A DNA stretch of 64,000 bases from a bacterium (GCA_021792615.1 JAJYUJ010000005.1:1-64000), one strand, 5' to 3'. Shown: positions 110 through 6,782, counted from the first letter of the stretch. The notes: generated by a model from the sequence alone, not told the origin. Made by a program: numbers and translations.

Positions 110-151
110 TATTTAAAGTTGTGATTACAGTATCTCAGGATAAGACACTGT

Positions 152-1000
152 ATGATCCAATTAACCGAAGATACGTATGAACAAATTCTTGCAGTCTGTT
201 TGAATAACAGTTCATCTTCTATAGACTTGACGCAGGCTTCTTTTATAGACCCCTGCGGTATGGTCGGTTTGCTCGAGATTGGTGAATTTTTTAAATCAAA
301 AGATATCGTGAATACTATTCAGCTTCCAGAATTAGAAGAAGTACTTAAATATCTTGAAAGAATGGACTTTTTCAAATTTGCCGACAACTATTTCAACCTC
401 ATACCTTCTAAGCCTGAAATACCGGAAAAATACAAGAGGAGTTCTTATTCCGATGTTCTGCTTGAGATTACGCCTATAGAAAAATCGGATGATATTCATT
501 TTATCGTTGGAAAGGTTAAAGAGCGCGCCAATGCAATCCTGAAAAAGCATCTAAATTATGATGAAAAAACAATAAACGACTTTATCGTGGCTCTATCAGA
601 GGTATGTCAGAACATCATTGAGCATAGTGAAAACAGAGGGTTTGTTGGCATACAGAAATACCGCTTCCAACATATCAATAAAAATGTCGTAAAGATTGCA
701 GTAATGGATATTGGCATAGGCTTCAAAAAATCTTTGTCAGAGCGTTTTATGTTAAAAGACGATTTTGATGCTATTGAAAAAGCGCTCATTCACGGTGCTA
801 CAAGATATACAGAAGAAGGAAGAGGTCATGGACTTGCTGCGGTAAGGCGTTTTGTGTCTCAGTGGAATGGAAAGCTCTCCATACGTTCAGGGACAGCAAA
901 ACTTTCAATCATCCCCGACTGGGCAAGAGGTAAAGAAAAGGAGATTAATCTTACCGAATTCCCCGGTGCCCAGATAAACATTATGCTACCACAAGTGTAG
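152..1000 (+). CDS. STAS-like / GHKL (HATPase) fusion, putative anti-sigma-type regulator
   Basis: This 282-residue protein seems to join two modules. Residues about 1-90 resemble a STAS domain (a hydrophobic strand then FIDPCGMVGLLEIGEF). Residues about 115-282 form a GHKL ATPase: N-box SEVCQNIIEHS near 147, G1 box DIGIG near 184, G2 box GRGHGLAAVRRF near 223. RsbW/SpoIIAB-type kinases have this ATPase and normally act on a separate STAS partner; here both are in one chain. There is no His-kinase dimerisation helix or membrane segment, so it should be cytosolic. It opens an AT-rich, same-strand island; a second STAS-like protein closes it. The Shine-Dalgarno (AGGA about 11 bp upstream) is weak. 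A regulatory role is inferred from fold only. Confidence 0.7.
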   Translation: MIQLTEDTYEQILAVCLNNSSSSIDLTQASFIDPCGMVGLLEIGEFFKSKDIVNTIQLPELEEVLKYLERMDFFKFADNYFNLIPSKPEIPEKYKRSSYSDVLLEITPIEKSDDIHFIVGKVKERANAILKKHLNYDEKTINDFIVALSEVCQNIIEHSENRGFVGIQKYRFQHINKNVVKIAVMDIGIGFKKSLSERFMLKDDFDAIEKALIHGATRYTEEGRGHGLAAVRRFVSQWNGKLSIRSGTAKLSIIPDWARGKEKEINLTEFPGAQINIMLPQV

Positions 1001-1120
1001 GTAGCAAACTTCCCCAACCTGCAAAGATTTCTCTTGACACAGAGAATAATACATGTTTCAATTGAATCAATTGAATTAGTAGAAGTTGTTTAAACGAAAA
1101 TTAATAAAAAGAAGAAGACA

Positions 1121-1270
1121 ATGAGCTTTGCAAAATGTGTGGCAAAGTTCGAGGAGTATTTCAATGACCCGGAGTAACACGATAAAATCTTCACAGAACT
1201 TGGGTTTAAATATGTAGAATATGGATATGGTGGCTTCTGTTTCGAATGTGAACAGAAACTGCGGCATTAA
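1121..1270 (+). pseudogene. Short reading frame interrupted by one in-frame TAA
   Basis: An ATG after a purine-rich AAAAAGAAGAAG stretch opens 18 codons (MSFAKCVAKFEEYFNDPE), a TAA at 1175-1177, then 30 more codons in the same frame ending in a second TAA. The second half (HDKIFTELGFKYVEYGYG, then a CxxC pair as FCFEC) reads like protein and needs no frameshift. It could be a decayed ~49-residue gene or chance. I recognise no family. It occupies most of the 403-bp gap between the regulator and the OLD nuclease. Confidence 0.35.
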
Positions 1271-1323
1271 CATTATAATAAATGCACCTTAAAAAATATT
1301 TTTTGAATAAAGAGAAAAAGAAT

Positions 1324-1380
1324 ATAGTATTTTCTATAGGTATATAAGAGATAACATCATGATCTGGATACTATTTTCTA
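1324..1380. promoter_or_regulatory. Paired repeats upstream of the OLD nuclease gene (candidate operator)
   Basis: ATAGTAT (1324-1330) and ATACTAT (1368-1374) are exact inverted repeats. The same segments also form an imperfect direct repeat, TAGTATTTTCTA (1325-1336) and TACTATTTTCTA (1369-1380), 11 of 12 matching, 44 bp apart (about four helical turns). They end just before the AGGAGG ribosome site of the next gene, a plausible place for a regulator to bind. The AT-rich background raises the chance of coincidence. Confidence 0.35.
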
Positions 1381-1403
1381 ATTATACAGAAGGAGGTTAT
1401 TAA

Positions 1404-3410
1404 ATGAAACTCCGACGGGCACGTATAACAAATTATAAATCTATTGTGGAAAGCGGTATTGTCGAGATTGAAGATGGTGTTACTGTCGTAATTGGCAAAA
1501 ATGAGCAGGGTAAAACAACCTTTCTTAAGTCTCTTGCATCATTCAATCGTGACTGGTCTTACAGACCAGGAGACCTACCCAATCATTTGAGACGTCAATT
1601 GGAAAAGGAACCGCCTGAAACTTTAGAAATTGTATCTTTATGGTTTAATTTAGAACCACAGGATCTAACAGAACTTCATAATCTAATAAACGATATTGAC
1701 CAGATTCAGGAATTAAAATGTGTTCGTTATTTTGATAACCATTATACATATTCACTAATTAGAGGCCAAGAAGAACAGCCAATCACTTTTGTTCCACTTG
1801 ATGTTTCAAAGGAAGCGTCACAGCTAAAGGAAGTTGCAAAAGCGCTAGTCACAAAATTCAATGCTCATGCTAATCGATTCCCACAATTTGCAGCTAGCAA
1901 AGAGCAATATTCACAGATTATTAATACCCTTCTAAATGCTTCTTTGACATCTTCACAGCATATTACAGATAGCGGTGAAACATTTATAACGGCACTTAAA
2001 AGTTTACCAGCACAAGATGCTGCAATACAACAAGACATTGCATCCGCATCTTCACAGGTTACCAATATTGTTGCTTCTGCTGCTTCTATTGCAAAACAAG
2101 ATCAAGGTGAAATATTTCAAAGCAAGCTTCCCATATTTTTATTTCATAGCACGAAAAGCGATGCAATTCCTAATGAAGTCCCGGTTACCGAGTTTCTTGA
2201 AGCGCCAGAAAAGATTTCTAGAGGTATGTTGCACCTATGCCGTGCCGCAGGTTTAACTATGGAAGAATTGAAAAAACTAGCTTCATCAGTAGATAGCTCA
2301 GAACGGCATAGTTATGAAGACTATTATACAAAATCCCTCTCAGGAGCAATTAATGAGTATTGGAAACAAGAATCTTATAAAATTTATTTTCAAATTGAGA
2401 ACGGGAAGCTTAATATCTCAATAAGCGATTCTACATATGACCAGCGTATTTTTCCTTCAGAGCGGAGTGAAGGATTTCAATGGTATTTGTCATTTTATAC
2501 AACGGTCCTCAATGAGATAGGGCCAAACAATAAGTTCATTCTTTTACTCGATAATCCTGGATTAGAGCTTCATATTGATGGGCAAAGAGACATTAAAAAC
2601 TTTCTTGAAAATAGGATCGCCTTCAATAGTCAAGTAATCTATGTAACACATTCACCATCAATGATTGATCCCTTCAACTTAGGTCAATTACGTAGAGTTA
2701 CACTTATGGGAGAAGAACAAGGAACCAAAATTGATGCTCGTTTGATTAAAGAAGGTAATGATTTCGATCTGCTAGAACCAGTCCGCGCAGCTATTGGAAT
2801 GAGCTTGGCAGGTAGTCTTATTGTAAGTGATTATACAGTTCTTGTTGAAGGAGCCTCAGATAAACCAATTCTGGATGCTGCATTTGGTGTGTGGCCGCCG
2901 GCCGATGGTCGTAAGGTGCTCATCAATGGGAGTATGTCTGAAAGTAAAGATGGCATACTCGCACGCTTTTATGCTCGAACCCAATTACCTTACATTGTTT
3001 TGCTTGATGCGGACTCTGCAGGAAGAAGTATAAAAGGTATTCTCATCTCTAAAGGAATCCCTGAAGATCGAATTCTTATGCTAAATGATATATTCACAGA
3101 TCGTCAAAATGACTTTGCAATTGAGGATCTTGTAAGCTGGGACTTTTACAGTAAAGCTGTTAAAAAAGAATATGCTGATTGGACTGAGGAGATCAGCAAC
3201 GATAGCGGCACACAAAAACGTGTAGAAATCTATGAGAAGGCTTTCAAGACCCGAAAGGGAATTGGTTTCAGCAAGAAACGAGTTGCTGAAACCATAGGGC
3301 GAATGCTTTATAATAATGAACATGACGATGAGACAAAAGATAATCTTCACAAGCTTCTTCAGGAGATAAAGAAGCGCTTTGGTTCTTCTACCGCCGGTGA
3401 AAGATCGTAG
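1404..3410 (+). CDS. OLD-family ATPase/TOPRIM endonuclease
   Basis: A 668-residue protein with the OLD nuclease architecture. Residues 31-38 hold the Walker A motif GKNEQGKT after an RNYKSI-type N-terminus (here ITNYKSI). A Walker B (ILLLDNPG, near 381) and the switch His (VTHSP, near 420) follow. A C-terminal TOPRIM domain carries the conserved Glu in LVEGASD (near 480) and DxD in LLDADSAG (near 533). OLD nucleases couple an ABC-type ATPase to metal-dependent DNA cleavage, and many act in phage defence. No UvrD-like GajB helicase is adjacent, so this is not Gabija; it sits next to a restriction-modification pair. The start has a strong AGGAGG, seven bases upstream. Family assignment is firm; a defence role is inferred. 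Confidence 0.88.
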   Translation: MKLRRARITNYKSIVESGIVEIEDGVTVVIGKNEQGKTTFLKSLASFNRDWSYRPGDLPNHLRRQLEKEPPETLEIVSLWFNLEPQDLTELHNLINDIDQIQELKCVRYFDNHYTYSLIRGQEEQPITFVPLDVSKEASQLKEVAKALVTKFNAHANRFPQFAASKEQYSQIINTLLNASLTSSQHITDSGETFITALKSLPAQDAAIQQDIASASSQVTNIVASAASIAKQDQGEIFQSKLPIFLFHSTKSDAIPNEVPVTEFLEAPEKISRGMLHLCRAAGLTMEELKKLASSVDSSERHSYEDYYTKSLSGAINEYWKQESYKIYFQIENGKLNISISDSTYDQRIFPSERSEGFQWYLSFYTTVLNEIGPNNKFILLLDNPGLELHIDGQRDIKNFLENRIAFNSQVIYVTHSPSMIDPFNLGQLRRVTLMGEEQGTKIDARLIKEGNDFDLLEPVRAAIGMSLAGSLIVSDYTVLVEGASDKPILDAAFGVWPPADGRKVLINGSMSESKDGILARFYARTQLPYIVLLDADSAGRSIKGILISKGIPEDRILMLNDIFTDRQNDFAIEDLVSWDFYSKAVKKEYADWTEEISNDSGTQKRVEIYEKAFKTRKGIGFSKKRVAETIGRMLYNNEHDDETKDNLHKLLQEIKKRFGSSTAGERS

Positions 3411-3478
3411 CCTATAAAAAAATAATATTAAATTGAATAAATTTAACATACGTATCAAAAATATAAAGGAGATATTAT

Positions 3479-4852
3479 ATGGTAAAAGGTGATATTCCTT
3501 TCGGCGCTCAGTTTTCACCCAGCCAGATTGATTTATCCAGAGTGATTGATTTATGTAATAAATATGAGGGCAACCGAACAGAATTAGAGAAAGCGATCCA
3601 GCAAGAATTTTTCAGCACCAAAGGGGAAAATGCTTATAATCAAGCAAAGCTTGCAATGAATACCGCTCTTGGACTAATTGCTTATGGAATTATAGATAGA
3701 AATGGTAACTTAACCGAACTAGGGAAAGACCTTCTTTCATTAAAAGATAATCCCTCTCAATTTTACAAACGTTTTGCTCAGCATATTCTGCTCAATCTGA
3801 GGGGATTGGATTTGGTTGAGACATCTCAAGATATGCAAGCAAGGAATGAGCATTTTGATCTTGTAAAATTTCGTGAATGGCTTGAAGAAAGAGGTATCCA
3901 CGTCCCCCGTGGTTCCGTTGGTATGAGCAGTATGAGATTATGGTTGGAAAAAGCAGGGCTTGTTAAGTCAACTGATTGGCAGATTGATCCTTTGGTATTA
4001 AAGTCACTTTTAGGTGCAGGAACAGAGGAAATTGATACTCTTGCGATGCTGTCACAAGAACAAAGGGCGTATCTGAAAGCTTTAACAAATATCTCTGATA
4101 AGAGAGCCTTCCCTGCAAATGAAATAGAACGATTGGCTACCCAACTATATGGTGTTAAATACAATGAAAAAATGTTGCCCAAACAAGTATTATACCCTCT
4201 GCAAGATATAGGATATATTAAAATCATAAAACAAACAGGAGGACGGGGAGCAAAGCCATTTATCGTTAAACCAACAAAAAAGCTAAAAAATGAAGTTATA
4301 GCACCCCTACTTGTGGCTTTAGAAAAACAAACCACATCTGATTTGAGACCGATGTTAAGAAAAGCGTTAAAGGATATTTTAAAGGATCTTATCCATGCAA
4401 ACAAACACACTAAAGGATTGGCTCTAGAAGCTTTAGCATTTTATTTGATGCGATTGGTAGACTTAACTTATATTGCTACCCGTTTACGGGGGAAAGCTAC
4501 CGGAGGTGCAGAAGTGGATTTAATATTTGAAGGAACAAGGTTTATTTTCAGCAGGTGGCAAATACAATGTAAAAACACCCGTATAGTCTCTCTTGATGAT
4601 GTAGCAAAAGAAGTTGGACTTACCTTCAAACTCAAATCAAATGTAATAATGGTTGTATCGACCGGCAGTATAAGTAGTGACGCTCGCAACTTTGCACATT
4701 ATATAATGAATACCACAAATCTTGATATTATACTTATAGACAGGGCTGATATTGAAAAAATAGGGGAAAATCCCATCTATATTTCTACAATCCTCGATAG
4801 AGAAGCAAAGAGAGCTATGCAAATAAAAAAATTGGAGATTAATAAAATATGA
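3479..4852 (+). CDS. Mrr-like (PD-(D/E)xK) restriction endonuclease
   Basis: A 457-residue protein. The C-terminal third has a Mrr_cat-type nuclease core: a helix with Glu (GLALEALAFYL, near 318), then GGAEVDLIF (Asp near 346) and the QxK element WQIQCKN (near 360), followed by alternating strands and helices (NVIMVVSTG). The N-terminal two thirds are mostly helical with winged-helix-like stretches, probably for DNA recognition. It overlaps the following methyltransferase by four bases (ATGA), typical of a translationally coupled R-M pair. The partner resembles M.PvuII, but this protein is about three times the size of R.PvuII and does not resemble it, so specificity cannot be read across. 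AGGAGA precedes the ATG. Confidence 0.78.
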   Translation: MVKGDIPFGAQFSPSQIDLSRVIDLCNKYEGNRTELEKAIQQEFFSTKGENAYNQAKLAMNTALGLIAYGIIDRNGNLTELGKDLLSLKDNPSQFYKRFAQHILLNLRGLDLVETSQDMQARNEHFDLVKFREWLEERGIHVPRGSVGMSSMRLWLEKAGLVKSTDWQIDPLVLKSLLGAGTEEIDTLAMLSQEQRAYLKALTNISDKRAFPANEIERLATQLYGVKYNEKMLPKQVLYPLQDIGYIKIIKQTGGRGAKPFIVKPTKKLKNEVIAPLLVALEKQTTSDLRPMLRKALKDILKDLIHANKHTKGLALEALAFYLMRLVDLTYIATRLRGKATGGAEVDLIFEGTRFIFSRWQIQCKNTRIVSLDDVAKEVGLTFKLKSNVIMVVSTGSISSDARNFAHYIMNTTNLDIILIDRADIEKIGENPIYISTILDREAKRAMQIKKLEINKI

Positions 4853-5814
4853 AAAAATATAAACCATATTATGAAACTAAATTAGGTTCCGCATATCTCG
4901 GAGACGCTTTTGATCTGCTTGATACCATTGATAAAGGCAGTGTTGATTTGATAATGACTTCGCCTCCTTTTGCTTTAAGGCGGAAGAAAGAATATGGCAA
5001 TGTTGATGCTGAAAACTACGTTGATTGGTTTTTACCATTTGCAGAAAAATTTTATGATGTACTTAAACCTAATGGTAGTTTGGTCATTGACATAGGCGGG
5101 AGCTGGTTACCCGGAAAACCTGTAAAAAGCTTGTATCATTATGAACTGCTTCTTGCTCTATGCAAAATACCTAATCGGACGTTATATTTAGCTCAGGAAT
5201 TCTTTTGGTATAATCCTGCTCGACTACCAACTCCGGCAGAATGGGTAAATGTGAGACGAGAGCGTGTAAAAGATGCCGTTGACAATGTATGGTGGCTTTC
5301 AAAAAATCCACATCCAAAAGCCAATAATCGCAAAGTACTGCAACCTTACAGCGATAGCATGCAGGAGTTACTCAAACGAGGATATAAAGCTAAACTCAGA
5401 CCAAGTGGCCATGATATTTCAACAAAATTCAGTCGTGATAACGGCGGAGCTATACCTCCAAATCTACTTGAAATTGCAAATACAGAATCAAACAGTAAAT
5501 ATTTAAGGGCATGCCGACAATTCAATCTGAAACCTCATCCAGCCAGATACCCTGCTGGTATTCCAGAATTTTTTATAAAATTCCTGACGGAGCCTCATGA
5601 TCTTGTAGTTGATCCTTTCGCTGGTTCTAATGTTACTGGCGAGGTTGCTGAAACATCCAATAGACGATGGTACTCATTTGAACTTAAAGAGGAGTATTTA
5701 AAAGGCTCTCTTTTTAGATTCGAAGAATTCTGCCCCACTGAGATAAAAAGTAATGGTTGCGTAAAAATGCAGCCTGAAGAAAAACCTATCCAATTACCTG
5801 TTTTATTCAGGTAA
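4849..5814 (+). CDS. Type II DNA (cytosine-N4) methyltransferase, M.PvuII-like
   Basis: A 321-residue beta-class methyltransferase. Catalytic motif IV TSPPFALRRKKEYGN starts near residue 37, and the SAM-binding motif DPFAGSNVTGEVAE is near 256, the order expected for N4-cytosine enzymes. From memory of M.PvuII, the segments around YVDWF, WVN.R..RVKDAV, RPSGHDI, GG.IPPNLL and HPAR.PA..PEFF match closely, so modification of a CAGCTG-like site is a reasonable hypothesis, but the target-recognition region was not compared by alignment. It protects host DNA from the nuclease encoded just upstream. Confidence 0.88.
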   Translation: MKKYKPYYETKLGSAYLGDAFDLLDTIDKGSVDLIMTSPPFALRRKKEYGNVDAENYVDWFLPFAEKFYDVLKPNGSLVIDIGGSWLPGKPVKSLYHYELLLALCKIPNRTLYLAQEFFWYNPARLPTPAEWVNVRRERVKDAVDNVWWLSKNPHPKANNRKVLQPYSDSMQELLKRGYKAKLRPSGHDISTKFSRDNGGAIPPNLLEIANTESNSKYLRACRQFNLKPHPARYPAGIPEFFIKFLTEPHDLVVDPFAGSNVTGEVAETSNRRWYSFELKEEYLKGSLFRFEEFCPTEIKSNGCVKMQPEEKPIQLPVLFR

Positions 5815-5830
5815 ACCTTGCGGATTTACT

Positions 5831-6112
5831 ATGGAAATAAATGGTAATAAAAATAAAACCAATAAGCTTAAATTCATCACTTATTCGCTGCCTCAACCAT
5901 ACAGCGTTAAATATATAGTCATAGTTGCAAATAGAGGCATAACCATAGAAGTCAATCATTTTATATCATTGCAACAAGCCAAAGGGGCTTTCAAAGAGAT
6001 AGCACTTGATTACGGTTTTGAACCTAAAAAGATAAACAATTCTGATAACTACGATGTTTCTATTTGGAAGTTGACAGAGGATCGATATAAAAGGGTTTTT
6101 TTGCATATTTAA
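5831..6112 (+). CDS. Small protein of unknown function (93 aa)
   Basis: I do not recognise this family. The first dozen residues are Asn/Lys-rich, followed by two predicted beta strands (YSVKYIVIVANRGITIEV), an amphipathic helix (SLQQAKGAFKEIALDYGF) and a C-terminal strand/helix (YDVSIWKLTEDRYKRVF). No signal peptide, membrane segment or metal motif is visible. It starts 16 bases after the methyltransferase on the same strand, so it is probably co-transcribed. The Shine-Dalgarno is weak. It could be an accessory or control protein of the R-M/OLD cassette, but nothing in the sequence shows that directly. Confidence 0.55.
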   Translation: MEINGNKNKTNKLKFITYSLPQPYSVKYIVIVANRGITIEVNHFISLQQAKGAFKEIALDYGFEPKKINNSDNYDVSIWKLTEDRYKRVFLHI

Positions 6113-6133
6113 GGTTTACGAATTAATAAAGCT

Positions 6134-6694
6134 ATGACCACCTATAACCTTTATAAACTTCTCAAAGAGGAGTTGAACAATGGCTCATCCGACCTTGTTA
6201 CGAGACCGTCCGGACAGGCGATAAGGGAACGGATTGAGAGGGATATTGCAAAGGAGAAGCAGGGTGATCTTATTGCCCTCGACTTTTCGAAAATAGGGAT
6301 AATTGACTACTCATGTGCCGATGAGATTGTGGCAAAGTTGATTTCAAGGCTTTGGGCTGGTGAATATGGTGATAGATATGTTATTTTGACTGGCCTTAAC
6401 GAGAACCAGAAGGAAAATATAGAGGTTGCTTTAGAGAGAAAAGACCTTGCTATTATGGCGGAAATGCAGGACAAAGAAAAAATCCTTGTCGGGTCCCTGA
6501 ACAATTATCTTAAGGAAACGCTCAATCTGATTATTAAAAAGGGCAGGATAACGGCCAAAGAGCTTTCTGATGCGATGGAACTCGAGTCTAATACGAGCGG
6601 GATGAGGCTGTTGAATCTTTACAAGAAAAGACTCGTTAAGAGAATTGATAAAGTAACAGAGAGCGGCAAAGTGTGGATTTATGAGAAGATTTAA
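6134..6694 (+). CDS. STAS-like (DUF4325-type) protein with C-terminal winged helix
   Basis: A 186-residue protein. Residues about 35-105 form a STAS-like fold (LIALDFSKIGIIDYSCADEIVAKLI), the pattern of DUF4325-type domains. The last ~60 residues look like a winged helix (GRITAKELSDAMELESNTSGMRLLNLYKKRLVKRI). Proteins of this kind are often encoded beside GHKL ATPases; here the nearest ATPase is at the other end of the island, with the nuclease and R-M genes between. A DNA-binding regulator whose STAS domain is a target for the ATPase is a natural guess, not shown. No clear Shine-Dalgarno is visible. Confidence 0.65.
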   Translation: MTTYNLYKLLKEELNNGSSDLVTRPSGQAIRERIERDIAKEKQGDLIALDFSKIGIIDYSCADEIVAKLISRLWAGEYGDRYVILTGLNENQKENIEVALERKDLAIMAEMQDKEKILVGSLNNYLKETLNLIIKKGRITAKELSDAMELESNTSGMRLLNLYKKRLVKRIDKVTESGKVWIYEKI

Positions 6695-6782
6695 CTTATG
6701 CGGCGCCGTTTGTATTACGTCCTAAACGAATCAAATACCTGTTCAACTTTTTTGATATGCAAAAAACAGAAAGCCTATATCC

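Follow-up and report, generated by a model that had tools for sequence, protein, structure and literature searches.

A CapKS-like kinase and repressor as a likely docking frame for exchangeable restriction-modification and defence genes

The locus described here raises the question of why two STAS-domain proteins, one fused to a HATPase and the other to a winged helix, should stand on either side of an OLD-type ATPase and a restriction-modification (R-M) pair. It lies in a 64,000-nucleotide stretch of bacterial DNA, referred to as the window. The original prediction was that the six genes, if conserved as a block, could form a two-layer defence, in which restriction is constant and the OLD nuclease is gated by the STAS/ATPase switch. 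Its six plus-strand open reading frames were recovered at the positions given below, and its family labels were backed by Pfam, PADLOC, NCBIfam and PDB searches. The features of the locus are as follows.

119-6773, no strand: inserted unit, without counterpart in the sister genome G004 (from the junction sequences and a blastn comparison of the window with L085)
152-1000, plus strand: g1, predicted CapK-like STAS-HATPase kinase of 282 amino acids, without an N-terminal HTH
1034-1062, plus strand: putative promoter, with TTGACA at 1034-1039, a 17-nt spacer ending in TGT, and TTCAAT at 1057-1062 (placed by the TTGACA-operator spacing across loci)
1057-1075, no strand: putative operator, TTCAATTGAATCAATTGAA, the sole exact copy in the genome
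1121-1270, plus strand: decayed gene for a small Cys-rich protein, with an internal TAA stop (read directly; the gene lies 3' of the operator in L050 and L070)
1404-3410, plus strand: g2, OLD-type AAA_15 ATPase with TOPRIM-like motifs (cargo)
3428-3446, no strand: weak operator-like palindrome with three mismatches, between g2 and g3, of uncertain role (genome scan)
3479-4852, plus strand: g3, Mrr_cat restriction endonuclease (cargo)
4849-5814, plus strand: g4, M.PvuII-like N4-cytosine DNA methyltransferase (cargo)
5831-6112, plus strand: g5, small accessory protein
6134-6694, plus strand: g6, CapS-like STAS-winged-helix putative repressor, with the Ser60 codon at 6311-6313

Organisation and variation of the locus

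The window begins at a contig edge, and only the first 20 codons of a minus-strand folD are present there. In G004, whose flank is 97% identical to the window at the nucleotide level, folD adjoins the sugar transferase and nothing intervenes; positions 119-6773 (6.65 kb) are therefore an insertion. The six-gene block has a GC content of 34-39%, compared with 46-50% in the flank, so that the AT-richness on which the original prediction had remarked is real; it extends over the entire unit, as would be expected for a recent arrival. This genome alone carries g6 among the nine genomes of its small phylum. A transposon-like insertion was ruled out, as the ends of the insert lack a common direct repeat of at least 7 bp and a recombinase is absent. 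A phage-borne origin was also set aside, IMG/VR having yielded neither a g6 relative nor the promoter-operator pattern, although absence from IMG/VR is weak evidence.

The first bracket protein, g1, matches HATPase_c, and its AlphaFold model consists of a STAS-type N-terminal domain followed by a SpoIIAB-like HATPase (Z 11.9 to the SpoIIAB fold). A PDB search with the g1 profile gave no match; direct alignment to CapK with hhalign gave a probability of 96.7 and an E-value of 4e-10. The ATP-site motifs (E150, N154, H158, DxGxG and GxGxG) are conserved, and the N-box asparagine N154 and E150 are invariant and aligned with CapK, as in a GHKL kinase core. In g6, family searches detected a DUF4325 STAS-like domain and a winged helix. 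The best PDB matches of its profile were CapS structures (9Z72/9Z73, E 2.8e-6; 9Z71, E 9.5e-5), and hhalign to CapS gave E 1e-6. Its Ser60 is invariant in 36 homologues and aligns with Ser54, the phospho-acceptor of CapS. The AlphaFold model combines a STAS domain with a MarR-like winged helix; CapS structures were not among the matches when it was compared with a fold library extending to April 2026. The idea that g6 replaces LexA was rejected, since LexA occurs in 23/44 genomes with g6 and 80/251 without.

Between the two lies the cargo. The TOPRIM-like motifs of g2 (VEG..D and DxD) were read in VLVEGASDK and LLDADSAG, and its family matches to the GajA, AriA and Old profiles are partial only. 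Gabija (GajA-GajB) was excluded, because the GajA match is incomplete and no UvrD-like GajB helicase adjoins g2. The match of g3 to PF04471 (E 2.8e-5) is above the curated cut-off, and a PDB search with g3 gave no match. The 5' end of g4 overlaps the 3' end of g3; phmmer aligned g4 to 1BOO with E 2.8e-108 and PADLOC assigned it to MTase_II with 404 bits. No family match was obtained for g5, but the protein recurs at 39-61% identity in eight loci (L003, L010, L013, L015, L051, L061, L064 and L102), often directly 5' of g6.

Six genes conserved together is not what the related loci contain. Fifteen relatives of g1, 49-78% identical to it, came from records labelled Nitrospirae/Nitrospirota, Nitrospinae/Nitrospinota and Proteobacteria, and a g6 gene usually lies downstream in the same orientation where the contig extends far enough. 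With tblastn, clear homologues in these 15 loci were limited to g1, g6 and sometimes g5; g2 and g3 had none and g4 a distant match only. As g2-g4 are not common to other loci, the block as originally proposed is ruled out, and the OLD, Mrr and methyltransferase genes do not make up a conserved two-layer system. What recurs, with order and strand kept, is the pair g1 and g6, seen in some 30 loci from three or more phyla. In 295 sampled genomes of one phylum, g6 was present in 44 and g1 in 39; 36 had both, eight g6 only and three (G011, G046 and G090) g1 only. Neither g6 nor the operator was found in those three, which are possibly decayed units or incomplete assemblies. In several genomes g1 was unlinked from the operator and g6, or was not found. 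The distances among g1 proteins and among g6 proteins are correlated (r=0.83, or 0.57 without an outlier; 0/2000 permutations), for which common descent alone could be a sufficient cause.

The gap between g1 and g6 ranges from 107 bp to 8 kb, with 5.1 kb of cargo in the window, and in most loci, L067 being an exception, it is AT-richer than g1 and g6. Its contents are diverse, and most of the bacteria examined have a different R-M system in this slot. By Pfam the type II restriction family changes from one locus to the next, and includes TdeIII (L002, L007), BglII (L003), MjaI (L010, L015), XcyI (L013), MvaI/BcnI (L015, L061), EcoRII-C (L051), EcoO109I (L054, L064) and Eco57I-type (L050); L014 encodes an N6_Mtase + HSDR_N protein. 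Elsewhere the gap is occupied by genes for DinG helicases, an AbiEii-like NTase, ORF6N proteins or a protein kinase; some cargo (ORF6N, S23-like, DinG) is not plainly defensive. N6_N4_Mtase was found 13 times in cargo and twice among 67 proteins from outside the brackets, and about 12 restriction endonucleases were found in cargo compared with none among the first 25 families listed for those 67 proteins. The original prediction was right in placing the STAS/ATPase parts with R-M and defence functions, over which they look like a switch; g1 and g6 bracket R-M cargo in many loci. Exchange is seen in pairs of loci. L002 and L061 have common chromosomal flanks, and approximately 6 kb upstream, g1 and g6 all align while the cargo does not; L010 and L014 share g1 and g6-mutS but differ in cargo.

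Stumps consisting of the 5' part of g6 were observed at L048:5270-5350 and L098:9806-9919, each about 75% identical to an intact g6 close by; they precede newly placed cargo, an AbiEii-like gene and an R-M pair, respectively. These stumps suggest that incoming cassettes bring a foreign g6, which displaces the resident copy and leaves remnants of it behind.

The promoter and its palindrome

A palindrome, TTCAATTGAWTCAATTGAA, with the half-site TTCAATTGA, lies between g1 and the cargo and overlaps a TTGACA promoter. It is placed either directly after g1 or farther downstream, ahead of the main cargo. TTGACA stands 17-18 nt 5' of it in 31/37 loci and 22-26 nt in the other 6/37, and the palindrome accordingly spans the -10/+1 region. 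Within the 295 genomes, a site with no more than one mismatch was present in 34/44 genomes with g6 and in 1/251 without (Fisher p 2e-34, a value which overstates independence because the sampled genomes are related). In a second phylum the figures were 13/19 and 5/278, and every exact match was in a genome with g6. Some genomes with g6 have no site because the contig ends first. The copy number per genome is nearly always one. In this genome the only further match with three mismatches or fewer is the weak palindrome at 3428-3446, where 0.05 such matches would be expected in the window. The operator of L003 has three mismatches, and the site is still recognisable ahead of g6 genes of only 41-55% identity. 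It is found immediately 5' of g6 in the cargo-free loci L056, L071 and L078, and 36-65 bp upstream of distant g6 genes which have no g1 nearby. On sequence grounds, the conserved entity is an order: kinase (g1), promoter/operator, exchangeable cargo, repressor (g6).

One strong operator precedes the entire cargo, and R-M and OLD would therefore be co-regulated, which goes against constant restriction beside a gated OLD nuclease. In favour of such a two-layer system, its parts are neighbours in the window and share one orientation. With a single operator ahead of both layers, however, and with the 15 related loci lacking g2 and g3 and offering only a distant match to g4, we find it scarcely credible.

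Other genes were observed near the site. A Cys-rich protein of about 143 amino acids is encoded 5' of the operator at L053:13782-14216 (between g1 and the operator) and at L099:1742-2170, and a gene at L054:13233-13730, again between g1 and operator, encodes what by eye is a GroES-like co-chaperonin. In L107-L113, a galT-like operon is headed by g6-like genes of 44-53% identity, which have the operator close 5' and lack a neighbouring g1; these are a repressor-only branch.

Comparison with CapKS and other regulators

The closest known system is CapK+CapS (Chambers et al., EMBO J 2026; PMC13373217), in which phosphorylation activated by ssDNA leads to derepression. In that study all 443 capK genes were immediately followed by capS, the controlled operon lay behind capS, and TTAA-type sites were present at two promoters. 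CapK has an N-terminal HTH and a tryptophan, W68, which contacts ssDNA; loss of the HTH made no difference, and W68A abolished activation (PMC13373217). The present locus shares with CapKS a STAS-GHKL kinase and a STAS-winged-helix repressor with the phospho-serine conserved, a promoter that lies between the genes for these proteins and bears a palindromic site, and linkage to immune genes. It differs from CapKS in that cargo lies between kinase and repressor, the order of capS directly after capK occurring only in cargo-free loci; in that one strong TTCAATTGA-type operator is common to cargo and repressor; in that g1 begins at the STAS domain, so that the HTH is absent, and has no Trp at the position of W68; and in that the cargo is often type II R-M, frequently with a repair operon downstream. 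Because gene order, kinase HTH and W68, and TTAA-type operators all depart from CapKS, the locus is, judged by its sequence, a CapKS-like variant and not a strict member. For CapKS, neither the split layout nor the common operator nor an exchangeable R-M cargo is described. Nitrospirota are unmentioned in the main text of PMC13373217, and no description of this arrangement was found in the open-access literature searched.

By analogy with CapKS, the unphosphorylated g6 dimer would bind TTCAATTGAWTCAATTGAA over the -10/+1 region and repress a single operon made up of the cargo and g6 itself, giving negative feedback. Like CapK, g1 would be activated by ssDNA arising from DNA damage or phage replication, although the loss of the HTH and of the W68 counterpart means that its signal may differ. 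Active g1 would then phosphorylate g6 at Ser60, g6 would release the operator and the cargo would be induced. As cargo and g6 share a promoter, this induction would raise the level of repressor as well. The arrangement suggests a plug-in defence locus which the kinase turns on, probably upon DNA damage.

R-M systems are usually viewed as constitutive, or as self-timed by C proteins, which are small HTH proteins each belonging to one R-M system. The present locus resembles the latter in encoding a transcription factor with a palindromic site alongside R-M genes, and differs in that R-M systems of many types use a single kinase/repressor frame; among g1-g6 no small HTH-only (C-type) protein was matched, and g6 was the only DNA-binding regulator found. 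With SpoIIAB-SpoIIAA and RsbW-RsbV it has in common the kinase fold and a STAS substrate with an equivalent serine, but there is no sigma factor and the STAS protein has its own DNA-binding domain. In CapW/BrxR and CapH+CapP, too, a repressor that responds to DNA damage controls immune operons which are interchangeable (PMC13373217); their proteins (a WYL repressor, and a protease with an HTH protein) are of families unrelated to g1 and g6. That approximately eight unrelated type II restriction families, along with other defence genes, have a frame and an operator in common predicts that restriction is inducible, that the trigger is shared and that exchange has a ready route. The 19-bp site, being usually single in a genome and so specific, offers a handle with which uncultured phyla can be searched for unknown defence genes.

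In a Cytobacillus plasmid (L097:7905-11738), an HTH-less kinase and STAS-winged-helix pair stands directly 5' of a ThiF/DUF6527 (Bub-like) operon, in the canonical CapKS order and with a g1-like kinase.

Competing explanations and repair neighbours

We consider it likely, with good confidence, that this is a CapKS-like phospho-switch whose rearrangement has made it a docking site at which R-M and defence genes can be exchanged. The most substantial challenge comes from the genes beyond g6. In 33/62 loci a same-strand repair gene lies within 3.2 kb downstream (rmuC 18, cinA 8, mutS 5, dinG 4, ruvC 1), and recA stands behind cinA in seven. This is one pointer to DNA damage as the trigger; it also suits a reading in which g1, operator and g6 are an ordinary CapKS-type regulator of the downstream repair operon (rmuC, mutS, cinA-recA), the R-M cargo being a passenger at a tolerated intergenic site and its regulation incidental. 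The cargo-free loci, where the operator directly precedes g6, fit that reading as well. Yet the unit in the window has moved without any repair gene, and ORFs of at least 150 amino acids in the cargo, from operator to g6, number 59 plus and 0 minus, compared with 94 plus and 53 minus upstream of g1 (simple ORF picking, not a gene caller). The operator has, moreover, been retained after capture, and we regard this explanation as rather unlikely.

The same 59:0 orientation and operator retention, together with the correlation between g1 and g6, would go unexplained if the locus were a generic defence-island hotspot with g1 and g6 mere neighbours of the landing site and without a regulatory role. 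Cargo which is mostly AT-rich and foreign-looking, between g1 and g6 genes that track host GC in Nitrospirota-type loci, would suit such a hotspot; but external flanks differ between loci and the bracket itself travels, as the insertion of the whole unit in the window demonstrates, so that we think it quite improbable. A further view takes the palindrome as a recombination (attachment) site marking cassette insertion, and not a transcription operator. Its position on the upstream side of the cargo, in a single copy, could be read in that way. Cargo-free loci have it too, however, with its distance from TTGACA fixed at 17-18 or 22-26 nt, it stands 5' of the distant g6 genes without g1, there is no second copy at the downstream border, and no recombinase gene was seen; this view is very improbable.

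An extension of the docking-site reading accommodates the repair neighbours. A switch heading repair operons (cinA-recA, mutS, rmuC, ruvC) and vertically inherited may have turned into a general docking site, in which cassettes with their own repressor slot between operator and repressor, so that restriction and repair would form one DNA-damage regulon able to jump phyla. We hold this extension tentatively, at a little below an even call. Two further observations concern these repair-linked loci: the slot in the cinA-recA lineage (L055, L058, L075 and L077) contains ORF6N-type genes only and no R-M, and at L114:982-3819 (oriented) a g6-like gene lies between yebC and ruvC-ruvA-ruvB.
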